Below, piece after piece: positions 38,346 through 53,028 of a stretch of DNA of 64,000 nt. The DNA lies in NCBI RefSeq assembly GCF_002803515.1, contig NZ_PHQX01000001.1:2046001-2110000 (forward strand). Direction: 5' to 3'. Numbering within the stretch: the first letter of the stretch is position 1; every line of letters starts with the position of its first letter. The notes under the pieces were generated by a model, which saw only the letters and a program-made list of their open reading frames with translations, made no database searches and was not told the origin of the DNA. Source of the stretch: Stenotrophomonas lactitubi. Its GTDB lineage: Bacteria; Pseudomonadota; Gammaproteobacteria; Xanthomonadales; Xanthomonadaceae. Made by a program: the position numbers and the translations under genes.

Positions 38346-38641
38346 ACCTTTTCCCCCGAAAGGTTGGTGGCACGGACGTCATGTCCGCTGCCGCCGCTAC
38401 TCTCGCTCACACTCCACACGCCGTACAAGCGAAATCTTTGTGCGAATGCAACATTAACCATTCATGAATATATAGGCACTTTCTTTTTCACGCTGAATCC
38501 TGCTTGAATGATTGGCAGCAGTTCGCAAGGGGTGCGGTGCCGGGTCCAGCCCGGTGTCCGCGGACAGGGGTAAGGTCTCGCCGTTCTGGCTCGATGTCCC
38601 TGGGGACGGTCGAGCCCGTGCGGTGCCAACAGGGGCAGAAC
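38346..38641. other. Divergent intergenic region with AT-rich patch
   Basis: About 300 bases between the tail-collar run (minus) and the autotransporter (plus). The stretch at about 38440-38510 is markedly richer in A and T than its surroundings and is the likely site of one or both promoters. I see no clear named operator, no small gene and no REP here. Confidence 0.4.
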
Positions 38642-41600
38642 ATGCATCAGTCATCAGCGCAACGCGTGGAGACGCCGCGTGCGCGTTCGCACGCTTTCTT
38701 TTCATCGTTCTGCTCCTGGTTCATCGTCGCGCTGTTGTGCGCGGGCAGCCTGTGGCCGCAGTTGGCGACGGCAGCCTCATCGACGTTCTGCCCGACGCTG
38801 AGCATGTCGGTGGCCAACAGTGGCTCGCAGACGATCGACATCAACCACTGTCACGGCGGCTTTGGTATCGCCGCAGGCACGGCAGCAACTCCGCACGGCA
38901 GCCGCACGGTAGGTTTGCAGTCGGGTGCCAACCTGCCGCTGACCTACACCCACAACGGCGACAGTGCCTCCACCGATACCTTCGTCATCCAGGACGACTT
39001 CGGCGGTGACATCACTGTCACCGTAACGATCGCTCCGGCGTCGGCCATCACCCTCGTCGCCACCCCCGCGGTCAACCTGACGGTGGGCGTGCCTTTCAGC
39101 ACCAGCCTCAGTGCCAGTGGTGGCACCGGCCCCTATACCTACAGCCTGGACAGCGGCTCCATTCCGCCGGGGCTGAGCCTGAGCGGAAACATCATCAGCG
39201 GTACGCCGACCCAGCGCGGCGCCTACGCCTTCACCATCCGCGCCACCGACAGCGCCTCTGCCAGCGGCGTGCGCAGCTTCAGCGGTTCGGCAGCCAACCC
39301 GACGCTTACCATCGCGCCGTCGTCGCCGTCTGCCGCGCTGAACCTTCCCTACTCTGTCACCTTCACTGCCAGCGGTGGCGTGCCCGGCTACACGTTCGCG
39401 TATGAAAACGGCACCCTGCCACCCGGCCTGAGCCTGAGCGGCGCGACCCTGAGTGGCACGCCCACCACCCAGGGCAGCTACACCTTCGGCATCCGCGTCG
39501 CCGACAGCAGCACCGGCACCGGCAGCTATGCGGAGGTCAAATCCGTGACCCTGCAGGTGGTTGCGCCGCCGACCATCGTGATCAACCCGGCCACCGTTCC
39601 GGGTGCAACCGTCGCTGTGGCCTACAGCCAGACCTTTAGCGCCAGCGGCGGCACTGCGCAGTATGGCTTCGCCATCACCGCAGGCGCCCTGCCCGCAGGG
39701 ATGAGCCTCAACACCAGCACCGGCGCACTGACCGGTACGCCCACCGCGGCCGGCACCTTCAACTTCACCGTGACCGCAACAGACGCCAATAGTTTCACCG
39801 GTTCCAACGCCTACACCCTGGTGGTGGCGCCTCCGGTGATCGTTATAGCTCCGACTACGCTGGCAGGCGGCACAGTCGGCGCAGCCTACAGTCAGAGCTT
39901 CAGCGCCAGCGGCGGCATCGCCTCGTACAGCTATGCGATCACCGCCGGCGCCCTACCGGCGGGGGTGACACTCAATGGCAGCAGCGGCGTCATCAGCGGT
40001 ACACCCAGCGCAGGCGGCACCTTCAACTTCACCGTTACCGCCACCAGCAGCAGCACCGGCGCCGGCGCGCCGCACACCGGCTCGCGTGCCTATTCGACGA
40101 CGTTCCTTCCGGCAACGGTCCTGCTGCCGGCCACCACTCTGGCCAATGGCACCGAGGGCGTGGCGTACAGCGCTGCGCTCAATCCCGCCAGCGGCGGCAC
40201 CTCGTCGTACACCTATGCGATCACTGCGGGCAGTTTGCCGGCGGGCATCGCGCTGAACGCCAGCACGGGAGCCCTGTCGGGCACCCCCACATCAGCGGGC
40301 ATCTCCAATTTCGCGGTAACCGCCACCGACAGCAGCACCGGCAGCGGGCCCTACAGCTCGGCGCCACGTGGCTATTCGCTACAGATCATCAACAGTCCGC
40401 CGGTTGCCAACCCGGTGTCGGCGACCGTGGCCTACAACAGCAGCGCCAATCCGATCACGCTGAACATCACCGGCGGCGTGCCGACCTCGGTGGCCATCGG
40501 CACTGCGGCGGCTCACGGCAGTGCCGTCGCCAGCGGCACCACCGTCACCTACCAGCCCACCGCGGGTTACGCGGGCCCGGACAGCTTTACCTACACCGCA
40601 ACAAACACTGCCGGCACCTCGGCGCCCGCAACGGTCAGCATCACGGTCGGCAATCCGACCATCACCGTGACTGCGGGCGGCCCGATGAGCGCCCAGGTCG
40701 GCGCAAGTTACAGCCAGACGTTCACCTGGAATGGTGGAACCGCACCCTATAGCGGATTCACTGTCACTGGCCTGCCAGCGGGTGTGGGCATCAGCGGCAC
40801 CACCGCCAACAGCGTGACCGTAAGCGGCACGGTGAGCGCGGCGGGCAGCTTCAGCCTCGTCGCCAGTGCAACCGACAGCAGCTCCGGCAACGGTCCGTTC
40901 ACCACCGGCCAGGGCTTCACGCTGACCGTTGGTGCGCCGACCCTGAGCATGACCCCGGCGCCGGGCAACCTGCCGATGAACTACGGCGTGGCCACCACCA
41001 TCAATTTCGCCAGCAGCGGCGGCATCGCGCCGTACAGCTACGCACTGGTCGCCGGCTCGCTGCCGGTGGGGGTCACCCTGACGTCGGCCGGTGTGCTCAG
41101 CGGTACGCCGACCGTCCCTGGCAACTACAACATCGCCGTGCGCACCACCGACTCCAGCACCGGCGCGGGAGCGCCGTTCTCGCTGCAGCAGAACTACACC
41201 ATCGTCGTTGCCACGCCGGCAATCGCCATCGATCCGCCCAGCCTGCCCAACGGCAGCGCAGGGGTGGCCTACAACGCGCAGTTGAGTTCCAGCGGCGGTA
41301 TAGCCCCCTACAGCTACGCGCTGCTCAGTGGTGCGCTGCCGATCGGCATGTCCTTCACCTCCGCTGGCGCACTGGCCGGCATCCCCCGATCGGATGGCAA
41401 CTTCAGCATCACATTGGGTTCCACCGATTCCAACGGCCAGACCGCCAGCCGCGTGTACACCTTCACGATCACTCCGGCGACCGTGGTACTGACACCCGCC
41501 ACCCTGCCCAGCGGCACGGTGGGCACGGCCTATTCGCAGAGCCTGAGCAGCAGCGGTGGCATCGCGCCGTATACCTATGCGATCGCCTCCGGCACCCTGC

Positions 41601-43714
41601 CCCCGGGCATTGCCTTCAGTTCGGCGGGTGTGTTCAGCGGTACGCCGACCACGGCCGGCAGCTATACCGCAGTGGTGCGTTCCACCGACGACGCCGGCTA
41701 CAACGCCACCCAGAGCTACAGCGTCGTCATCGCTGACGCGGTACCGGTGGCAGTGGATGACAGCGCCACCACGCCATCGCAGCAACCGGTGACGATTCCG
41801 GTAACGGCGAACGACGGCGGAGTGATCACCTCGATCGCCGTGGCAGGCGCGCCGGCACATGGCACCGCCACCGTCAGCGGCGTGACGGTTGTCTACACAC
41901 CAACAGGCACCTACTTCGGCGCGGACAGCTTCACCTACACCGCCACCGGCCCAGGTGGCACCTCGGCCCCGGCCACGGTGTCGATCACCGTCAACGCGCT
42001 GCCGGTGCCTGCGGGGCAGCCGCGCGCGGCTGTCGCCACCGTGGCAGGGCAGCCGGTGACCATCGACACCACGGTGGGTGCCACCGGCGGTCCGTTCACC
42101 GGTGTGACCCTGGTGACGCAGCCGGCCACCGGCACCACGACGGTGACCGGTACCAACATCACCTACACGCCGCTGGTCACCGCCTCGGGCACCGCGAGCA
42201 TCGTCTACACATTGAACAACGCCTATGGCGCTTCGGCTCCGATCACCACCACGATCACCATCAACCAGGTGCCTGTGGCGGTCTCGCGTCGGGTCAGTGC
42301 AAATGCGGGTGTTGCGGCGGTGGTCGAGCTGACGACCGACGCCACCGGAGGCCCGTTCACCGCAGCCACCCTGGTGTCGCTGTCACCGGCCACTGCCGGC
42401 ACTGCCACCATCGCACCGTCCGGTAGCGGCGCCAGCGCGGGCTATCGCCTGACCTTCATCCCGGCGGCTACGTTCGCCGGTACCGCCACGGCCACCTTCA
42501 CGTTGGCAAACGCATTCGCGACCTCGGCGCCGGCGACCATCGACTTTGATGTGATCGGCCGACCGGACCCGACCCTGGACGCGGAAGTGATGGGCCTGCT
42601 GGGCGCGCAGACCGCTTCCACCCGTCGCTTCGCCACTGCGCAGATCGGCAACTTCCAGCGCCGCATGGAAGGCCTGCATGGTGCCGGCAGAGGCACACGC
42701 TTCGAGAACGGGCTGAGCTTCGGCGTCGACCGCGACCGTCGCTGCCAGGATGAAGTGCGACGCATGCCCGGCGGCGATTGCCGCCAGGTCACCGCGCTGG
42801 ACGAATCTGTTCTGAGGGACGACGTTGCTGTCGCGCCCGTCGGCGGGGATCGCGGCAAACGTAGCGGCAATGGCGATAACGGCGCCCTGACCCTGTGGAC
42901 CGGCGGTTCGATCAACAGCGGTGATCGCGATGGTCGCTCGGGCAGCGCCGGCTTCGACTTCCAGACCAGCGGCATCAGTGCTGGTGCCGATACCCGCGTG
43001 AACCAGTCGTTCGCCTTCGGCGCCGGTATCGGCTACGGCCGCGACACTACCGACGTCGGTCACAACGACACCCGCAGCCACGGCGAGAGCTACACCCTGG
43101 CTGCGTACGCCAGCTATCACCCGGGCCAGTACTTCTTCGTTGATGGCCTGCTGGGTTATCAGTTGCTGTCGTTCGATTCGCGCCGCTACGTGACTGCCAA
43201 TGGCGCGATGGTGCAAGGTGACCGCGACGGCAAGCAGTGGTTCGCCTCGCTGTCGGTCGGTGGCGACTACCAGCGCGACCGGTTGTCGGTGAGCCCGTAC
43301 GCGCGCCTGGATCTGGCCCGCGCCACATTGAACGGCTATACCGAACGCGGCGACGCCATCTACGCCCTGCGCTACGAGGACCAGGATGTGGATACCACCA
43401 CCGCCAGCCTGGGCGTGCACATGGACTATCGCTTCCCGGTCCGCTTCGGCACGCTGTCGCCACAGGTGCGGTTCGAGTACCAGCACGACTTCCAGGACGC
43501 CAGCTCGGTGACGATGGGCTACGCCGATCTGCCGGGCGGTCCGTTCTACCGCGGCGAAATCGACGGGCTCAAGCGCAACCGGTTCGTGTTCGGTCTGGGG
43601 GCGGTGCTGCAGACCGAGCGCGACCTCAGCCTGCGGATCGAGTACCGCGGCCTGTTCGGCAGCAGCGAAGACACCGACCACGGTGTGCAGCTGAACCTGG
43701 AAAAGAAGTACTGA
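38642..43714 (+). CDS. Giant Ig-repeat autotransporter
   Basis: A 1690-residue surface protein. An extended signal peptide (about residues 1-45, hydrophobic part FIVALLCAGSLWPQLATAA) is followed by a passenger made of tandem Ig-like repeats of about 85-100 residues, each with the He_PIG pattern Y-x-F/Y-x-I-x-x-G-x-LP-x-G-x-x-L and GTPT-x-x-G (about residues 135-1035). Cadherin/VCBS-like repeats ending APATVSITV follow. The last 300 residues are an autotransporter beta-barrel (TLWTGGSINSGDRDGRSGSAGFDF in part, final LEKKY) that inserts in the outer membrane. An adhesin or biofilm role is likely. ATG at 38642 is chosen for its signal peptide. Confidence 0.88.
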   Translation: MHQSSAQRVETPRARSHAFFSSFCSWFIVALLCAGSLWPQLATAASSTFCPTLSMSVANSGSQTIDINHCHGGFGIAAGTAATPHGSRTVGLQSGANLPLTYTHNGDSASTDTFVIQDDFGGDITVTVTIAPASAITLVATPAVNLTVGVPFSTSLSASGGTGPYTYSLDSGSIPPGLSLSGNIISGTPTQRGAYAFTIRATDSASASGVRSFSGSAANPTLTIAPSSPSAALNLPYSVTFTASGGVPGYTFAYENGTLPPGLSLSGATLSGTPTTQGSYTFGIRVADSSTGTGSYAEVKSVTLQVVAPPTIVINPATVPGATVAVAYSQTFSASGGTAQYGFAITAGALPAGMSLNTSTGALTGTPTAAGTFNFTVTATDANSFTGSNAYTLVVAPPVIVIAPTTLAGGTVGAAYSQSFSASGGIASYSYAITAGALPAGVTLNGSSGVISGTPSAGGTFNFTVTATSSSTGAGAPHTGSRAYSTTFLPATVLLPATTLANGTEGVAYSAALNPASGGTSSYTYAITAGSLPAGIALNASTGALSGTPTSAGISNFAVTATDSSTGSGPYSSAPRGYSLQIINSPPVANPVSATVAYNSSANPITLNITGGVPTSVAIGTAAAHGSAVASGTTVTYQPTAGYAGPDSFTYTATNTAGTSAPATVSITVGNPTITVTAGGPMSAQVGASYSQTFTWNGGTAPYSGFTVTGLPAGVGISGTTANSVTVSGTVSAAGSFSLVASATDSSSGNGPFTTGQGFTLTVGAPTLSMTPAPGNLPMNYGVATTINFASSGGIAPYSYALVAGSLPVGVTLTSAGVLSGTPTVPGNYNIAVRTTDSSTGAGAPFSLQQNYTIVVATPAIAIDPPSLPNGSAGVAYNAQLSSSGGIAPYSYALLSGALPIGMSFTSAGALAGIPRSDGNFSITLGSTDSNGQTASRVYTFTITPATVVLTPATLPSGTVGTAYSQSLSSSGGIAPYTYAIASGTLPPGIAFSSAGVFSGTPTTAGSYTAVVRSTDDAGYNATQSYSVVIADAVPVAVDDSATTPSQQPVTIPVTANDGGVITSIAVAGAPAHGTATVSGVTVVYTPTGTYFGADSFTYTATGPGGTSAPATVSITVNALPVPAGQPRAAVATVAGQPVTIDTTVGATGGPFTGVTLVTQPATGTTTVTGTNITYTPLVTASGTASIVYTLNNAYGASAPITTTITINQVPVAVSRRVSANAGVAAVVELTTDATGGPFTAATLVSLSPATAGTATIAPSGSGASAGYRLTFIPAATFAGTATATFTLANAFATSAPATIDFDVIGRPDPTLDAEVMGLLGAQTASTRRFATAQIGNFQRRMEGLHGAGRGTRFENGLSFGVDRDRRCQDEVRRMPGGDCRQVTALDESVLRDDVAVAPVGGDRGKRSGNGDNGALTLWTGGSINSGDRDGRSGSAGFDFQTSGISAGADTRVNQSFAFGAGIGYGRDTTDVGHNDTRSHGESYTLAAYASYHPGQYFFVDGLLGYQLLSFDSRRYVTANGAMVQGDRDGKQWFASLSVGGDYQRDRLSVSPYARLDLARATLNGYTERGDAIYALRYEDQDVDTTTASLGVHMDYRFPVRFGTLSPQVRFEYQHDFQDASSVTMGYADLPGGPFYRGEIDGLKRNRFVFGLGAVLQTERDLSLRIEYRGLFGSSEDTDHGVQLNLEKKY
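39040..41745 (+). repeat. Tandem Ig-like repeat array within the autotransporter
   Basis: About eight or nine units of roughly 255-300 bases encoding the same Ig-like module, with recurring DNA words such as those for ASGGIAPY and LSGTPT. Such arrays tend to change copy number by recombination. Unit boundaries were judged by eye. Confidence 0.7.
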
Positions 43715-44894: not shown

Positions 44895-45548
44895 ATGGCG
44901 AACGCAGCGCAGCCGGTCCTGGGTGGACCGGACTTCCTCCGTCTGCTCGCCCGTCTCAGCGACGGCGCGATGCCGGCCTCCAGTCCCGCCCTGACCGATC
45001 GCCTCGGCCAGTGGGTGGATTGGAGCCGTGCCGTGGCCCTTGCGGGGGCGCTGGATGACCGCCTGGCTGAACCGGCCGAGGCCGCCGAAGCGCTGGATGA
45101 TCTGCTGGCCGACTGCGCCCAGGCCGAAGCGAGCCTGTTGGCCTCGCTGAGCGAGGATGCCGAGGCCGAGCGCCTGCTGGACCTGGCCGAGGCCGCTGCG
45201 GCACCCAACTTCGCTTCGCTGCGGCAGCGCTACCGCGTGCTGCAGCAGGCCATCCAGACCGCCACCGGCCGCCTGCGCGGCCGCCTGCGTGACCAGCTGG
45301 TGCTGGCATCACCGGAGCTGGCGCGGCTGGCCGAGGTCGATGCGGTGATGGAACAGACCTTAAGCCCGCGCGAGCACAGCCTGCTCGCCACCGCCCCAGC
45401 AGTGCTGGGTGCCCGATTCGAACGCGTGCACGGCCAGCCCGGCTGGCGCGCGTCCTTCCGCCACGACATGCGCACGCTGCTGCTCGCCGAGCTGCAACTG
45501 CGCTTCCACCCGATCCAGGGGCTGCTTGCCGCCCTGCGCTCACACTGA
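44895..45548 (+). CDS. DUF3348-family protein, first gene of the stator-like cluster
   Basis: A 217-residue soluble, mostly helical protein starting MANAAQPVLGGPDFLRLLARL and rich in Ala, Leu, Glu and Arg. The middle (about residues 90-150) has coiled-coil character, and the end is FHPIQGLLAALRSH. I read it as DUF3348, a family of unknown function found with DUF802, OmpA-like and DUF2894 genes, as here. It is probably cytoplasmic and a candidate regulator or effector for the membrane motor-like pair encoded next, ten bases downstream. ATG at 44895 was chosen; a GTG/ATG slightly upstream (44877) is possible. Confidence 0.75.
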   Translation: MANAAQPVLGGPDFLRLLARLSDGAMPASSPALTDRLGQWVDWSRAVALAGALDDRLAEPAEAAEALDDLLADCAQAEASLLASLSEDAEAERLLDLAEAAAAPNFASLRQRYRVLQQAIQTATGRLRGRLRDQLVLASPELARLAEVDAVMEQTLSPREHSLLATAPAVLGARFERVHGQPGWRASFRHDMRTLLLAELQLRFHPIQGLLAALRSH

Positions 45549-45558
45549 CCGGAACACC

Positions 45559-47823
45559 ATGTCCAGAACTGTTTTCCACGTCCTTGTCTTCCTTGCTGGC
45601 CTGCTGGCCGTGTGCTGGATCGGTGTCGGCTATGTCTCGGTTCACCCGCTGGGTGCGGCCGTGGCAGCGATCATTGCGGCCTGCTACATCGCCGGTGGCG
45701 TGGAGCTGTACCGCTACCGGCAGGCCAGCAATGGCCTGCGCGCCGCGCTGAATGACGTTTCGCTGGCCAAGGACAGCCTGGCGCCGTGGCTGGAGCGTGT
45801 GCCGCTGAGCCTGCGCAACGCCGTGCGACTGCGCGTGGAAGGCGAGCGCACCGCCCTGCCCTCGCCGGTGCTGACCCCCTATCTGGTGGGCCTGCTGGTG
45901 CTGCTGGGCATGCTCGGCACGCTGCTGGGCATGATGGACACCCTGCGCGGCACGGGCCTGGCCCTGCAGAGCGCTACCGACATGGCCGCCATCCGCGGCT
46001 CGCTGGCCTCGCCAGTGCAGGGCCTGGCGGTGGCGTTCGGCACGTCCATCGCCGGTGTCGCCAGTTCGGCCATGCTGGGCCTGTTGTCGGCGCTGCTGCG
46101 CCGCGACCGCCTGCAGGTGGTGCAGCAGCTGGACCGCGCCATCGCCACTGACCTGCATCCGTATTCGCAAGCCTGGCAGCGTGCCGAGTCGCTGCGCCTG
46201 CTGCAGTCGCAGTCCGCAGCGCTGCCTGCGCTGGTCGATCGCCTGCACGCGATGACCAGCACCTTCGAACAGCACAGCGCGGCCGCCAATGAGCGCCTGC
46301 TGGCCGGTCAGGCCGAATTCCTTACGCAGAGCCAGGCGTTGCAGGAGCGCCTGGCCACCTCGCTGCAGCAGTCGCTGCGCGAAGGTGCCGAAGCCAGTGC
46401 CGCCGCCATCGGGGGCGCGCTGCAACCGATGGCCGAAACCACGCTGGCTGGTCTGGCCAGTCACGGCCAGGCGCTGCATTCGCGCGTCGAACACGCGGTG
46501 CAGCAGCAGTTGAAGGGCCTGACAGAGGGCTTCGAGCGCAGCCGCCTGGCCACCGAGGCCAGCTGGGCCAACGTCGTGGCTGAGCAGACCGGCGCGCAGC
46601 AGACACTGGTGTCTGAACTGCGCCAGCATCTGCAGGCCTTCAGCGAAGGCCAAAGCGCACAGAGTGAAGCGCTGGTGGTGCGCATCGGCGAGCGCCTGCA
46701 GGCCGACGCCAGCGCCAACGCCGACGCCTGGCATGCCGCTGCCGAACAGCAGCATGCGTTGAACAGTGAACTGGTCGAGCGTCAGCAGCAGGTACTGCAG
46801 CGTGCCAGCAGCCATCTGGACGAACGTGCGCAGACGCTGCTGCAGGCGCTGGATGAGCGCCACGCCGCCGGCCAGTCGCTGCTGCAGGACCACGAACAAC
46901 AGCGCCTGCAGGACTGGCAGGCTGCACAGGCCGCCACCGCCACGGCGCACGCCGAACTGCAGGCGGGCCTGGATGCACGCGAACAGCAGCGCCAGCTGCG
47001 TTGGGACGCGGTGAGTACCGAGCTGCAGCAGGCGCATGCCGCATTGCAGGCTCAGCTGGTGGCCGCTGACGAACAGCGCCTGCAGCGCTGGAGCGAGGCG
47101 TTGCAGAGCGTTTCGACCGAGCTGGCCGAGCGCCTGCAGGCCAATGGCGAACGCTTGTCCGCGCAGCAGCAGCAGGTGTGCGACACGCTGGCGCAGACCG
47201 CGCAGCAGATCGGCGAGAACGGCCGCGCACAGGCCAGCGCCACGCTGGCCGAAGTATCCACCCTGCTGCAGACCGCGGCCGAGGCGCCGAAGGCCGCGGC
47301 CGAGGTCATCAACGAACTGCGCAGCACCCTGTCCGAAAGCCTGGTGCGCGACAACGCGATGCTGGAGGAGCGTGGCCACCTGCTGGCCACCGTGCAGACC
47401 CTGCTGGAGGCGATCAACCACGCCTCGCACGAGCAGCGCACGGCCGTGGACGCGTTGGTCGGTGGTTCAGCTGAACTGCTGGAACGCGTCGGCAACCGCT
47501 TCACCGACCACATCGCCGCCGAGACCGGCAAGCTCGATGGCATCGCCACCCTGCTCAACGGCAGTGCCGGTGAGGTAGGTCAGCTGGCCGGCACCTTCGG
47601 TTCTGCGGTCGAGCAGTTCGGCACTGCCTCGGCGGAGCTGTCGGGACGCCTGGAGCAGATCGGCGGGGCGTTGGATGCCTCGCTGGCGCGCAGCGATGAG
47701 CAGCTGGCGTACTACGTGGCACAGGCGCGCGAGGTGGTCGACCTCAGCCTGCTGTCGCAGAAGCAGGTGATGGAAGAACTGCAGCAGCTGGCCGCGCGCC
47801 GCGGCAAGGCCGGCAGCGCATGA
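45559..47823 (+). CDS. DUF802 protein: MotA/ExbB-like membrane core with long coiled-coil tail
   Basis: A 754-residue protein. Four membrane spans occupy residues 5-25, 30-52, about 112-135 and 155-180. The third and fourth carry the MotA/TolQ/ExbB hallmark: LVGLLVLLGMLGTLLGMMDT, then AVAFGTSIAGVASSAMLGLL. The remaining 550 residues are an almost unbroken Gln/Ala/Leu/Glu-rich coiled coil reaching far into the cytoplasm. This is the architecture of ZorA of the Zorya defence system and of stators in general: a pentameric proton channel with a rotating tail. It overlaps the MotB-like gene by four bases. GGAACACC precedes the ATG. No function has been established for DUF802 proteins to my knowledge. 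Confidence 0.82.
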   Translation: MSRTVFHVLVFLAGLLAVCWIGVGYVSVHPLGAAVAAIIAACYIAGGVELYRYRQASNGLRAALNDVSLAKDSLAPWLERVPLSLRNAVRLRVEGERTALPSPVLTPYLVGLLVLLGMLGTLLGMMDTLRGTGLALQSATDMAAIRGSLASPVQGLAVAFGTSIAGVASSAMLGLLSALLRRDRLQVVQQLDRAIATDLHPYSQAWQRAESLRLLQSQSAALPALVDRLHAMTSTFEQHSAAANERLLAGQAEFLTQSQALQERLATSLQQSLREGAEASAAAIGGALQPMAETTLAGLASHGQALHSRVEHAVQQQLKGLTEGFERSRLATEASWANVVAEQTGAQQTLVSELRQHLQAFSEGQSAQSEALVVRIGERLQADASANADAWHAAAEQQHALNSELVERQQQVLQRASSHLDERAQTLLQALDERHAAGQSLLQDHEQQRLQDWQAAQAATATAHAELQAGLDAREQQRQLRWDAVSTELQQAHAALQAQLVAADEQRLQRWSEALQSVSTELAERLQANGERLSAQQQQVCDTLAQTAQQIGENGRAQASATLAEVSTLLQTAAEAPKAAAEVINELRSTLSESLVRDNAMLEERGHLLATVQTLLEAINHASHEQRTAVDALVGGSAELLERVGNRFTDHIAAETGKLDGIATLLNGSAGEVGQLAGTFGSAVEQFGTASAELSGRLEQIGGALDASLARSDEQLAYYVAQAREVVDLSLLSQKQVMEELQQLAARRGKAGSA

Positions 47824-48479
47824 GCGACGAGCTGGAGGTCGACGGCGGCTCGCACGCCCCGATCTGGGCGGCATTCGGCGATCTGATGTCGGTGCTGCTG
47901 GGCGCGTTCGTGCTGATCCTGGTCGGCGTGGTTGCGGTGCAGCTGGAGCTGTCACAACGGCTGGACCAGGAGGTCAAGCAGCGCCAGGCCGAGGCCAAGC
48001 GCCTGCAGACGCTGGAACAGGCGTTGGCTGGCCCGCTCGCCGCCGGCCGGGTGACGCTGGTGGATGGTCGCATCGGCATCAGCGGCAGCGTGCTGTTCGC
48101 GCTGAACTCCGACCAGCTGCAGCCGGAAGGCCAGGAACTGCTGCGCAGCCTGGCCGCGCCGTTGGCGGCGTACCTGGGTTCGCGCGAAGAAATCCTGATG
48201 GTCAGCGGCTTCACCGATGACGCGCCGGTGCGCGAAGGCAACCGCCGCTTCGCCGACAACTGGGAGCTGTCCGCACAGCGCTCGCTGACGGTGACCCGGA
48301 CCCTGATCGCGGACGGCGTACCGGCCGATGCGGTGTTCGCCGCTGCGTTCGGCAGCGAGCAGCCGGTCAGCTCCAATGCCAACGAAGAGGGCCGCGCGCG
48401 CAACCGCCGCGTGGAGATCGCGCCGATTCCCAAGCCCAAGGCTGCTGCGCCGGGTGAAAAGAGCGGCGATGGCAGCTGA
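47820..48479 (+). CDS. MotB/ZorB-like protein with OmpA domain
   Basis: A 219-residue protein with one N-terminal span (about residues 17-42) that opens FGDLMSVLLGAFVLILV. The Asp in this D-x-M setting occupies the place of the proton-carrying Asp of MotB (ADFM) and ZorB. A short coiled segment follows, then an OmpA/MotB peptidoglycan-binding domain (about 80-205): NSDQLQPEGQELL, VSGFTDDAPVR, NWELSAQRSLTVTRTLI, NRRVEI. Together with the preceding DUF802 protein it makes a complete stator-type pair anchored to the cell wall. The end overlaps the DUF2894 gene. Confidence 0.85.
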   Translation: MSDELEVDGGSHAPIWAAFGDLMSVLLGAFVLILVGVVAVQLELSQRLDQEVKQRQAEAKRLQTLEQALAGPLAAGRVTLVDGRIGISGSVLFALNSDQLQPEGQELLRSLAAPLAAYLGSREEILMVSGFTDDAPVREGNRRFADNWELSAQRSLTVTRTLIADGVPADAVFAAAFGSEQPVSSNANEEGRARNRRVEIAPIPKPKAAAPGEKSGDGS

Positions 48480-48846
48480 GTCCTCGCCATTGGATGGATT
48501 GCGTGCGCTGGTGCGCGATCTGGATGCCGGCTCGCGTGCACTTGCGCACTATCCGCAGGTGCCGATGCTGGACGACGTGCGCCGCGAGTGGTCCGAACTG
48601 CGCAGCGAACTGCAGGTGCGCCGCTCGCTGCGCACCGAGGCCCCGGCCGACGGCGGCCCACTGAACTCGGCAGTGCTGGTGCAGCGCATGCTGGACACGA
48701 TGCAGGCAACCAGCCCCGGGTATCTGCGCCACTTCATCGACTACGTCGATACGCTGTCGTGGCTGCAGGCGTTGCAGGATGGTGCAGCCAGCGTTGCGGA
48801 TACCGCAAAGCCGAAACGCACACGCAAGCCACGCAAGGCGGATTGA
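48469..48846 (+). CDS. DUF2894-family protein, last gene of the stator-like cluster
   Basis: A 125-residue cytoplasmic helical protein: LDGLRALVRDLDAGS, then a central charged region, PGYLRHFIDYVDTLSWLQAL, and a Lys/Arg-rich tail (PKRTRKPRKAD) that could bind nucleic acid or membrane. Assigned to DUF2894 by its pattern and by its neighbours. It overlaps the preceding gene by 11 bases, so the four genes are surely one operon. The function is unknown. A cluster of REP hairpins starts ten bases after its stop. Confidence 0.75.
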   Translation: MAAESSPLDGLRALVRDLDAGSRALAHYPQVPMLDDVRREWSELRSELQVRRSLRTEAPADGGPLNSAVLVQRMLDTMQATSPGYLRHFIDYVDTLSWLQALQDGAASVADTAKPKRTRKPRKAD

Positions 48847-48855
48847 GCACGCGTT

Positions 48856-48998
48856 GACGCCGACCTCGATCGGCGCTTCTGGAAACGACGATCCTGATCC
48901 GCGCTCCTGGTAGACGCCAACCTTGGTTGGCGCTCCACAAACCGGGTAGCGCAGCGTCCATTCGACGCTGCGCATGCCAACCAAGGTTGGCATCTACC
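48856..48998. repeat. Cluster of SMAG-type REP hairpins
   Basis: Four palindromes in a row: GCCGACCTCGATCGGC near 48859; GTAGACGCCAACCTTGGTTGGCGC at about 48910-48933; GTAGCGCAGCG with its partner CGCTGCGC at 48946-48974; and GCCAACCAAGGTTGGCATCTAC ending at 48997. The second and fourth are inverted copies of each other. They close the DUF3348-DUF2894 operon. Confidence 0.8.
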
Positions 48999-49070
48999 AC
49001 AGCAGTGCGCCGGTCGTTCCAACGTTCAAAGCAGTGCCGCCACCCGGCCCAGTCGCAAGCACAGATGACC

Positions 49071-49220: not shown

Positions 49221-51521
49221 ATGACCAAGACCCTGTTGGCTGCTGCGTTGTCCCTTGCCCTTGCGCCAACCGCATGGGCGCAGCAGGCGCCGTCGGCCAC
49301 CGACCTCGATGCCGTTTCAGTCATCGGCAGTGGCGAGGCGCGCCAGGTGCAGCGCATCACCCGCGAGAACCTGGACATCCTGCCGCCAGGCACCAGCCTG
49401 CAGAAAACGCTGAACCTGCTGCCCGGCGTCAACGCGCAGTCGGCCGATGCGCTGGGTACCAACGAACAGTCGATGACCCTCAGCCTGCGCGGCTTCAACG
49501 CCACCCGCCTGGGCTACACACTGGACGGCGTGCCGCTGGGCGATGGCGCGTACAACAACTACAACGGCCTGACCATCAACCGTGCGCTGATCAGCGAGAA
49601 CATGGCAGGCGCCGAACTCGCGGTGGGCATCGGCAGCCTCGGCACGCCGTCCACCAGCAACCTCGGCGGCACCATTTCCTATACCTCCGACCGACCGGCG
49701 CAGGAACTGGGCGGCCGCGTGGTGCAGACCTTCGGCAGCGATGCCAACCGCCGCACCTTCGTGCGCGTGGACAGCGGCGAATACAACGGATTCTCCGGCT
49801 ACGTGTCGGGCATGAACGCGGTCTCGGACCTGTGGAACGACCAGACCGCCTACAACAAGTCCACCACCAAACAGTTCAACGCCAAGGGCGTGTGGAACTT
49901 CGGCAGCGGCCAGATCACCGGCTTCGTCGACACCTCGCGCACCAGCCAGGCCGACTACTTCTACCTTTCGAAGGACGAGATGTCCCGCGGCCTGGGCTGG
50001 GACTGGGGCGGCTACGCACCGGACTGGAACAAGGCCGTGGCCAAGGCCTACTGCAACACCGCCAGCCTCAACGCGAAGAAGTGCGACAACAGCGGTCCTG
50101 ACAAGGACGCCGACGGCGCCTTCACCGCCGGGCAGATCCTGCGCGATGACAACCTGTACTACCTGGCCGGCGACTTCTTCCTCGCCGACGGCTTCACCCT
50201 GCGGGCGCTGGCCTACCACCACGACGATCGCGGCGAAGGCCACAACTGGAACAGCGGCGCCTGGTCGAACAAGGGCACTGCGCAGGAAATCCCGATCATC
50301 TTCCGCAACACCATCTACACCATCGATCGCGATGGCGGCACGCTGTCGTTCGATTGGGAACTGGGTGCGCACCGCATCGAAGGTGGCGTCTGGTACGAAC
50401 GCAACACCAGCAGCGCCGAACGCTACCAGACTGCGGTGGACGGACCACGTGACCTCAGCGGCATGAACACCCTGCCCTCGGATGTGGGTGTGTTCGCCCA
50501 GCGCACGCGTTGGAAAACCCACCAGTTCTTCCTGAAGGACACCTGGCGCCTGCTTGACGACCGTTTGACCCTGGAATTCGGCGCCAAGAGTCCGCATGCC
50601 ACCTCCGACGCGCAGGCACTGCCCGGCGATGCGAAGACACCGATCTCGCCAAGCTCGAACAACCAGTTCGCCACCGGTTCGCTGAAGGCCAGCAAGAACT
50701 TCCTGCCCAGCGTTGGCGCCAACTTCCGCCTCAGCGAGCATCACGAAGTGTTCGCCAGCTACGCCGAGAACATCGCCATGTTCCAGGGCGGCTTCAAACT
50801 CGGCCCGCAGGCGGTCAGCCAGGCCACCTGGAACGCGCAGGGCAACCTGAAGCCGGAAGAATCACGTTCGCTGGAGGCGGGCTACCGCTTCGTCACCGAC
50901 ACGCTGCAGGCATCGGTTGCTGCCTACAGCGTGCGCTTCGACAACCGTCTGCTGCAGTACAACCCCTGCGACTCGCGGCAGGCGGTCGGACCGACCTGCG
51001 GCAACCGCTTCTACAACGTCGGCGGCGTCGACAGCCGCGGTGCCGAACTGACCGTGCTGTGGACACCGAACGAGCACTTCAGCTGGTACACCTCGGCATC
51101 GCTGAACCGCTCGACGTATGCCTCCAACTACATCCAGGCTGGCGTCGAGCAGCAGATCAAGGGCAAGATCCAGACCGACACGCCCAAGCAGCTGCTGGCC
51201 ACCGAGATCACGTGGCGCGACAACGGCTGGTTCGCCAGTCTGCGCGGCAAGTACACCGGCGAGCGCTTCTACACCTATACCAACGACCAGGGCTTCGGCG
51301 GCTTCACCGTGTTCGACCTGGCCGGCGGCTACGATTTCGGCCAGGTCGGCTTCGCAAAGGGCATGCGCCTGTCGCTGAACGTCACCAACCTGGGCGACAA
51401 GCGCTACGCCAGCAACCTGGATTCGAGTGTGTTCGCACCCAGCGACCCGTCGGGCAAGCTGTATGTGTTCCATGCGTCGGCACCGCGCCAGGTGTTCGGT
51501 ACCATCGACATCCGCTTCTGA
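49221..51521 (+). CDS. TonB-dependent outer-membrane receptor
   Basis: A 766-residue receptor importing an unknown ligand with TonB energy. The signal peptide is MTKTLLAAALSLALAPTAWA. The plug starts at TDLDAVSVIGSGEARQV (about residue 29), then MTLSLRGFNATRLGYTLDGVPLGDG and LGGTISYTSDRP; a 22-strand barrel follows and ends in IDIRF with the C-terminal aromatic residue. The downstream partner is a phytase-like esterase 22 bases away, suggesting uptake of a phosphate-ester or a product of that enzyme. The upstream gap holds REPs and a possible Pho box. Confidence 0.92.
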   Translation: MTKTLLAAALSLALAPTAWAQQAPSATDLDAVSVIGSGEARQVQRITRENLDILPPGTSLQKTLNLLPGVNAQSADALGTNEQSMTLSLRGFNATRLGYTLDGVPLGDGAYNNYNGLTINRALISENMAGAELAVGIGSLGTPSTSNLGGTISYTSDRPAQELGGRVVQTFGSDANRRTFVRVDSGEYNGFSGYVSGMNAVSDLWNDQTAYNKSTTKQFNAKGVWNFGSGQITGFVDTSRTSQADYFYLSKDEMSRGLGWDWGGYAPDWNKAVAKAYCNTASLNAKKCDNSGPDKDADGAFTAGQILRDDNLYYLAGDFFLADGFTLRALAYHHDDRGEGHNWNSGAWSNKGTAQEIPIIFRNTIYTIDRDGGTLSFDWELGAHRIEGGVWYERNTSSAERYQTAVDGPRDLSGMNTLPSDVGVFAQRTRWKTHQFFLKDTWRLLDDRLTLEFGAKSPHATSDAQALPGDAKTPISPSSNNQFATGSLKASKNFLPSVGANFRLSEHHEVFASYAENIAMFQGGFKLGPQAVSQATWNAQGNLKPEESRSLEAGYRFVTDTLQASVAAYSVRFDNRLLQYNPCDSRQAVGPTCGNRFYNVGGVDSRGAELTVLWTPNEHFSWYTSASLNRSTYASNYIQAGVEQQIKGKIQTDTPKQLLATEITWRDNGWFASLRGKYTGERFYTYTNDQGFGGFTVFDLAGGYDFGQVGFAKGMRLSLNVTNLGDKRYASNLDSSVFAPSDPSGKLYVFHASAPRQVFGTIDIRF

Positions 51522-51543
51522 TCACCGGCCGAGGAGTCCATCC

Positions 51544-53028
51544 ATGTCCGCTACTGCCCTGCTGTTGGCCGCGCTCTCGGTCAGCGGCTACAACGCCCCG
51601 CATGAAGCCCGCGGCATGCCACCACGCGCGGTGGACGTGGGCAGCTTCACCTACGTGGACAAGGGATTGGTCGCCGCCGGGCGATTGCCGGCCGGCACCG
51701 TGGACTTCCTCGGCGATACGCTGGGCTCGTTCTCGTCGTTGGCGGTGCAGCCGGGTACGTGGCGACGCACCGCGCGGGGTTACGAGGGGGTGCTGTGGAC
51801 GCTGCCCGACCGCGGCCGCAACGATCCGGAGGCCGGCCTGTTCTACGACTATGCCGGCCGCCTGGAACGCATGAAGCTGCGCATCGATTGGCCGCAGGGG
51901 ACGTCCAAGGGCTTCGGCGTGGTGACGATGACGCCCGACAAGGGCCTGGTGCTGAAGGACTACAACGGCCATCCCTTCACCGGTGCCGACCCCGGTGATC
52001 ACACGATCAACCAACGTGGCGTGGTGCTGCCCTCGCCCGCCGTGGGCCCGGGGGCCGGCAAGGTCGCACTCGATGCCGAATCGCTGCAGTTCACTGCCGA
52101 CGGCCACTTCTACATCGGCGACGAGTACACCGCCAACGTCTACTACTTCGATGCACAGGGCCAGCTGCAGGGAGTGATCGTGCCGCCGCTGGCGATCCGG
52201 CCACAACGTGATGGCAAGCCTGCCTTTGGATCGTTGACCCCACCGCAGACCGGGCGCCGCAACAACCAGGGCGTGGAAGGCATGAGCCTGTCGCCCGACG
52301 GCACACGGCTGGTTGTTGCCCTGCAGAGCGCCTTGATCCAGGACAGCGCGCCGGGCAATGCCGCTGGCCGCATCAATACCCGCGTGCTGGTCTACGACGT
52401 GTCCACCAACCCGACGCCGACGCAACCGGTCGGCCATCACGTGATGATCCTGCCCGCCTATGCCCATGACGGCAAGGGCAAGCTGGACCGTACTGCTGCA
52501 CAGAGCGAGCTGCGTGCGTTGGACAACGAGCGTTTCCTGATGCTGGCGCGCGATGGCAATGGACTGGGCAAGGATGGCGACGACCCGATCGTCTATAAAT
52601 CAGTGCTGCTGGTGAACGTGGCGCAGGCGTCCAATCTGGTGGATACGGAATATGAGAACGGCACGGCATCGGTGCTGGCCGACCCGGCTGATGCGATCTT
52701 GAAGACCGGTATCGTTCCCGCCAACGTCAAAGAGGTGCTGAACCTGCTCGACCGGCCACAACTGGCCCGGGCCGGGCTGGACCTGGATACAGGGCGCGGC
52801 CCCCACCCGGGACTGCTGTCGGAGAAATGGGAGGCGATGGACGTGTTGCCGGCGCTTGATCCAGAGCACCCGAACGACGTACTGCTGCTGATCGGCAACG
52901 ACAACGACTTCATCGCCCGCAGCTGCCGCATGCAGGGCGAGCACTGCGACAGCGCGTACGACAACGACAACCGGGTACTGGTGTATCGGCTCACCCTGCC
53001 GCAGCCACTACCCGTCACGCCACGATAG
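51544..53028 (+). CDS. Phytase-like esterase family protein
   Basis: A 494-residue secreted or periplasmic protein of the 'esterase-like activity of phytase' type. It has a beta-propeller-like series: LGDTLGSFSSLAVQPG, GYEGVLWTLPDRGRND, LDAESLQFTADGHFYIGDEY (acidic metal-binding pattern), QGVEGMSLSPDGTRLVVALQ, and the end NDVLLLIGNDNDF. Its signal peptide is short (MSATALLLAALSVSG) and may be incomplete. GAGGAG stands seven bases before the ATG. It forms an operon with the TonB receptor. The substrate is not known; phytate or another phosphomonoester is the family guess. Confidence 0.82.
   Translation: MSATALLLAALSVSGYNAPHEARGMPPRAVDVGSFTYVDKGLVAAGRLPAGTVDFLGDTLGSFSSLAVQPGTWRRTARGYEGVLWTLPDRGRNDPEAGLFYDYAGRLERMKLRIDWPQGTSKGFGVVTMTPDKGLVLKDYNGHPFTGADPGDHTINQRGVVLPSPAVGPGAGKVALDAESLQFTADGHFYIGDEYTANVYYFDAQGQLQGVIVPPLAIRPQRDGKPAFGSLTPPQTGRRNNQGVEGMSLSPDGTRLVVALQSALIQDSAPGNAAGRINTRVLVYDVSTNPTPTQPVGHHVMILPAYAHDGKGKLDRTAAQSELRALDNERFLMLARDGNGLGKDGDDPIVYKSVLLVNVAQASNLVDTEYENGTASVLADPADAILKTGIVPANVKEVLNLLDRPQLARAGLDLDTGRGPHPGLLSEKWEAMDVLPALDPEHPNDVLLLIGNDNDFIARSCRMQGEHCDSAYDNDNRVLVYRLTLPQPLPVTPR

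Follow-up and report, generated by a model that had tools for sequence, protein, structure and literature searches.

What does an operon do that joins a MotA/MotB-like motor to two protein families of its own? The question is raised by four genes in the window, i.e., the whole 64,000-nucleotide stretch of DNA analysed here, in which a sequence-only reading had seen a Zorya-type ZorA/ZorB stator with its own partners in place of the ZorC, ZorD and ZorE effectors, and for which it had considered defence, envelope surveillance or motility as roles. Open reading frames and Pfam matches agree with the composition and position of the operon described there: four ORFs on the forward strand follow one another in the order DUF3348, DUF802/MotA-like, OmpA/MotB-like and DUF2894 (Table 1), with Pfam E values of 2.5e-7 for DUF802 and 7.7e-27 for DUF2894 in addition to those tabulated for DUF3348 and OmpA. 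Successive ORFs are spaced by +10, -4 and -11 bases, in line with the overlaps of 4 and 11 bases noted earlier. The general motor profiles of Pfam stayed below their curated cut-offs, both for MotA_ExbB (21.4 bits vs. a cut-off of 22.9) and for MotB_plug (13.1 vs. 24 bits). Hydropathy indicated membrane-like stretches at residues 5-23, 21-48, 108-126 and 158-180 of the second protein and at residues 22-40 of the third. Hairpins just beyond the operon were also part of the earlier description; inverted repeats are present there, and they are REP-like.

Table 1 Features of the operon and its 3' flank (positions in the window).
Feature	Position	Strand	Details
DUF3348 partner (ZorF)	44895..45548	+	217 aa; Pfam PF11828 2.3e-58; PADLOC PDLC00658 8.2e-73
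ZorA3: four-span motor subunit, DUF802 rod, conserved tip	45559..47823	+	754 aa; PADLOC PDLC00647
ZorA TM3-TM4, residues 108-180; Thr121, Thr162, Ser163 are polar ring candidates	45880..46098	+	
ZorA rod, residues 185-579; length varies, phase-locked among relatives	46111..47295	+	
ZorA tip, residues 580-745; conserved, length near-constant	47296..47793	+	
ZorB3: single membrane span and OmpA-type domain	47820..48479	+	219 aa; PADLOC PDLC00651 4e-116
ZorB Asp21 codon (GDLM Asp; candidate aspartate of the ion channel)	47880..47882	+	
ZorB OmpA domain, residues 92-196	48093..48407	+	Pfam PF00691 4.6e-18
DUF2894 partner (ZorG), short form without N-terminal helical domain	48469..48846	+	125 aa; PADLOC PDLC00654
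ZorG C-terminal tail, Lys/Arg-rich	48805..48843	+	net charge of last 25 residues at least +4 in 109/122 ZorG
Inverted repeats 3' of operon	48908..48999	.	two 24-nt arms, inner 10-nt hairpin 48949-48973

The PADLOC models for type III Zorya matched all four genes over nearly their full length, with bit scores of 1066 for ZorA3 (residues 1-753), 384 for ZorB3, 244 for DUF3348 and 222 for DUF2894 (E 1.1e-66 for the DUF2894 model; the E values for ZorB3 and DUF3348 are given in Table 1). Type III Zorya was named by Payne et al. 2021 (PMC8565338), where it is defined as a zor gene pair (printed as zorBC) between DUF3348 and DUF2894 genes, with 6,401 cases. The window operon contains a ZorA with a MotA/ExbB-like channel and a long tail, a ZorB with a membrane aspartate and an OmpA domain, and DUF3348 and DUF2894 genes on either side of zorAB. 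As described in that paper, the tested representative likewise comes from Stenotrophomonas, and all four genes and families are alike; the ZorG of the window is short, at 125 aa compared with about 170-300 in long-form type III loci. The system of S. nitritireducens DSM 12575 is reported to lower plaquing in E. coli BL21-AI, as one of three systems that cut plaquing of at least one phage when expressed in E. coli (PMC8565338). We therefore conclude that the operon is very probably a complete type III Zorya motor, an anti-phage system already known. The sequence-only reading was right about a ZorAB stator with replacement partners, and it erred in regarding DUF802, DUF3348 and DUF2894 as families without known function: the arrangement is that of the published type III Zorya, so novelty fails as well. 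Genes of these three families thus belong to a named defence system with experimental support, which settles the question about the families.

We use ZorF for DUF3348 and ZorG for DUF2894 in the sense of Payne et al. 2021 (PMC8565338). The labels are reversed in PADLOC-DB 2.0, where DUF3348 is ZorG3 and DUF2894 is ZorF3. The NCBIfam models for ZorA gave 33.5 and 21.1 bits, where their own cut-offs are 100 and 500 bits, respectively. Among the matches listed, the closest named ZorA proteins belong to Stenotrophomonas maltophilia, S. geniculata, S. sepilia and similar strains, with 91-94% identity over the motor region, which suggests that the window comes from this group.

The order ZorF-ZorA-ZorB-ZorG was found in all 60 fetched loci (in four of these, one partner gene was set by ORF position instead of sequence match). 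It was likewise found in every one of 80 named loci, 79 of them tightly packed, these being the best 80 of at least 560 relatives; the two sets have some genomes in common. Conservation of the order in both sets indicates that the association of the genes is more than chance.

A profile built from 23 type III ZorA motor regions matched Shewanella ZorA (PDB 8VVN) over TM3-TM4 with E 1.5e-6, the sole PDB sequence retrieved up to E 0.1, whereas the whole-length ZorA of the window as a single-sequence query did not retrieve 8VVN from the PDB. Thr121, Thr162 and Ser163 are invariant in all 23 type III sequences; by hand count along the alignment, their counterparts in chain C of 8VVN are Thr158, Thr197 and Ser198. 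For the first 80 residues of ZorB the top PDB matches were 8VVN_B (E 0.0018) and 8QYD_F (E 0.024), the latter from what we take to be E. coli ZorAB, and Asp21 aligns with Asp24 of the former and Asp26 of the latter. In 99 of 99 deduplicated ZorB sequences (of 141), Trp16, Phe19, Asp21, Leu22 and Met23 are invariant. These alignments agree with the ZorA/ZorB layout and the D-x-M aspartate in the ZorB span that had been recognised by eye. The likeness to type I ZorAB of Shewanella sp. ANA-3 (8VVN, PMC11890865) comprises TM3-TM4 with the aligned Thr/Ser residues, the ZorB channel aspartate, the OmpA-type domain and the long cytoplasmic rod. As reported for these systems, defence by both type I and type II depends crucially on the ZorB aspartate (D24 in type I), 5:2 ZorA:ZorB structures are known for both types, and bound Na+ is present in the type I structure (PMC11890865). 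In view of this Na+, the proton of the sequence-only reading is a candidate ion for the motor of the window. Homology thus supports a wall-anchored ion motor, and by analogy with the solved type I and II complexes the operon would encode an active, rotating 5:2 assembly.

The cytoplasmic part of ZorA is conserved at both ends and variable in between. Among 123 deduplicated ZorA sequences (of 140; locus L271, in which the calls for ZorA and ZorB lie apart, was excluded), conservation covers the motor and approximately the last 200 residues, with a mean top-residue fraction of 0.63-0.86 in 25-residue blocks from ZorA 576 to 750, and residues 326-525 are variable. Two DUF802 matches of the window ZorA lie in this tail (best 377-428, Pfam). 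Relatives carry 202 to 868 residues between the sites that correspond to residues 185 and 580 of the window ZorA, whereas the motor stretch 30-185 is near-constant (154, 155 or 157 residues), as is the tip stretch 580-745 (165 or 169 residues, plus one low value of 72). At 99.0 degrees per residue, i.e., 3.636 residues per turn, the 41 distinct rod lengths are phase-locked (R 0.756 vs. a random mean of 0.31; 0/5000 random sets and 0/5000 sets under a jittered-length null as high), and these lengths are tied to phylogeny and not independent. The hydrophobic periodicity of the tail has its broad peak at 99.0 degrees too (60-residue windows). Phase locking was retained with four further pairs of anchors that take in rod sequence, in the 29 loci outside the taxonomic order of the window (19 lengths, R 0.668, 5/2000 as high) and in the remaining 94 loci (26 lengths, R 0.883, 0/2000 as high). 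It was absent from two loop regions of ZorF and two ZorG length measures. Some of 14 ZorA proteins examined contain internal repeats of 40, 51, 62 or 69 residues; one ZorA of 1048 residues (locus L122) carries a strong 69-residue repeat inside the rod. We read the rod as a single continuous helical bundle that changes size by phase-preserving units. Because continuity of a coiled coil alone demands such a phase rule, the rule by itself is no proof of torque transmission. It predicts, with length free and helical phase fixed, which rod insertions should be tolerated.

The partner proteins are small and predicted to be all-helical. The AF2 model of ZorF reached a pLDDT of 87.0 and a pTM of 0.81, the predicted fold of ZorG is of the same kind, and neither had a Foldseek match in the PDB at E ≤ 0.001. 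No enzyme fold or nuclease was recognised in the operon. The match of ZorG to DUF2894 begins at profile position 104 of 185, and the part of the protein that is present in every form is the C-terminal domain, usually with a basic tail. The short form is common to loci of the maltophilia group and a few other Stenotrophomonas examined; most relatives have the N-terminal helical domain. A net charge of at least +4 over the last 25 residues was found in 109/122 deduplicated ZorG, compared with 49/99 ZorB, 2/124 ZorA and 0/121 ZorF. As the median net charge of ZorA without its last 25 residues is -24, the basic tail of ZorG may bind acidic ZorA rather than DNA. Covariation of distances links ZorG to the proximal rod and not to the tip, a signal confounded by linkage.

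These partners set type III apart from the other Zorya types, with which it shares the core. Type I uses ZorC and ZorD, both of which type III lacks. Type II (ZorA, ZorB, ZorE) is alike in its ZorAB core and rod, and its ZorE is reported as a nickase, a gene that the window operon does not contain. Neither ZorC and ZorD nor ZorE was found in the operon and its ten flanking ORFs. The general Zorya model, as published, has a nuclease complex recruited by ZorAB, and wall binding, the rod and the ZorB aspartate are reported to be needed in types I and II. A mechanism study of type III Zorya was not found in the openly licensed literature.

Taking over the sensing, ion flow and rotation steps from types I and II, we propose that five ZorA and two ZorB would form an ion channel in the inner membrane, that disturbance of the envelope by a phage would let the OmpA domain of ZorB grip the cell wall, and that ion flow past Asp21 would turn the ZorA ring together with its long cytoplasmic rod. 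ZorF would most likely sit near the motor base, and ZorG, with its basic tail, would be recruited to the rod and hold incoming DNA there; this placement and role of the two partners we regard as possible and fall short of calling probable. DNA so held might be blocked from entry or use, or be exposed to host nucleases, an outcome that we propose because none of the four genes was recognised as coding for a nuclease. In a broader picture, an unlikely one in our estimate, type III would be a nuclease-free branch of Zorya: a wall-anchored motor of the core genome that, when the envelope is punctured, turns a rod whose length evolves freely at a fixed helical phase, and whose helical ZorG adaptors with their basic tail seize or block DNA without cutting it. 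Such an action would resemble that of Kiwa, which the table of a review lists with DNA binding, not cleavage (PMC12904381). The small size and predicted all-helical folds of the partners make the question of Zorya defence without a recognised nuclease more testable.

The same observations, i.e., all-helical predicted partners and no recognised nuclease in the operon, would suit a motor in which ZorF and ZorG act merely as a gate. Its channel would open on infection, and the cell would lose its energy supply through the leak of ions (abortive infection), no effector on DNA being involved. In line with such a gate, Payne et al. 2021 (PMC8565338) propose regulation of ZorAB by ZorF and ZorG. However, recruitment of a nuclease and a need for the rod have been reported for types I and II, and neither the common basic tail of ZorG nor the conserved tip of ZorA has an obvious place in a pure leak, and we consider this mode of action rather unlikely.

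The distribution of the operon bears on the identification as a type III Zorya defence motor from another side. Among 91 Stenotrophomonas genomes, DUF3348 is present in 87 and DUF2894 in 88; one genome (G029) has DUF2894 and a ZorB of 82% identity in the 3.3 kb at the start of a contig. Copies truncated at a contig end being included, the operon is therefore counted in 88/91, a count that rests on the DUF3348 and DUF2894 searches. There is one DUF3348 gene per genome, with seven genomes listing two pieces of one ORF. The comparator defence gene HsdR_N (type I restriction) occurs in 47/91. DUF3348 was found in 98/247 genomes and 19/54 genera of the family sample, in 8/369 genomes of the class sample, four of them from the family, and in 13/299 genomes of the phylum sample, 12 of them above the cut-off. 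The DUF2894 profile also scored above its cut-off in Corynebacterium glutamicum, a control genome outside the expected range. Searches confirmed no relatives on viral contigs and found none on phage records. Plasmid matches amounted to 27 records, 26 in genera classed as Burkholderiales and one in Azoarcus, and the plasmids among the 20 matches listed measure 0.59 to 3.2 Mb.

FastTree phylogenies of RpoB and Zor were compared for 59 of the 60 loci and the window (G290 was left out for want of a retrieved RpoB sequence). Mantel correlations were 0.63 overall, 0.44 in the family and 0.72 inside the genus (0/2000 permutations each); the trees have 21/57 splits in common, and 18/40 Zor branches with support of at least 0.9 conflict with an RpoB branch supported to that degree. 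Flanks of the operon are common within subclades and mostly different between them, with a few links across genera. Partial agreement of the trees together with this flank pattern suggests that descent is mostly vertical within clades, that the operon has at times passed from one genus to another, and that it has changed its site as a four-gene cassette.

With regard to the defence islands for which a neighbourhood survey had been suggested, the window itself gave a negative result: none of the ten flanking ORFs tested, some of which may not be genes, had a PADLOC match at E ≤ 1e-5, so that no defence island is visible beside the operon in the window. Presence in 88/91 genomes of the genus and the lack of PADLOC matches in these flanks differ from the patchy pattern of defence islands, and this combination of near-fixation and absence of flanking PADLOC matches is unusual for a defence system. 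Elsewhere, type III Zorya is reported among the systems of Ralstonia solanacearum that are highly conserved, i.e., present in at least 90% of the genomes of a species (PMC13064858), and among the predicted defences of a Variovorax strain (PMC11953036).

Near-fixation in Stenotrophomonas, compared with 47/91 genomes for HsdR_N, would fit a motor that serves envelope surveillance as a core function in Lysobacterales and Burkholderiales and whose action on phages is one result of this function or arises on expression in E. coli, as would the single gene per genome, the lack of copies on viral contigs or phage records in the searches made and the flanks common within subclades. Against such a core function, the well-supported Zor branches in conflict with RpoB and the change of neighbours between subclades show that the cassette does move, and outside the genus it is found in only part of the family sample and in few genomes of the class sample. 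We judge this explanation to be improbable.

A flagellar or other motility stator is highly improbable: despite ancestry shared with MotA/MotB, related channel subunits and an OmpA-type domain that matches MotB structures too, the operon differs from MotAB/PomAB in its long phase-locked ZorA rod, in being linked to DUF3348 and DUF2894 genes at every locus examined, in scores under the MotA and MotB cut-offs of Pfam and in having 8VVN_B and 8QYD_F, not MotB, as the closest solved ZorB spans. The motility-related role that had been entertained for the locus gained no support in the analyses.

Next to the type III Zorya operon lie an AstE/M14-like gene in divergent orientation and the gene of a TonB-dependent receptor, which is followed by that of a phytase-like esterase (49221-53028 for these two). 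Receptor and esterase are possibly a pair for uptake of phosphate esters. Upstream of the operon, an ORF of 1736 aa (38504-43714) contains, by eye, many repeated Ig-like segments, and its C-terminal part resembles an autotransporter barrel.
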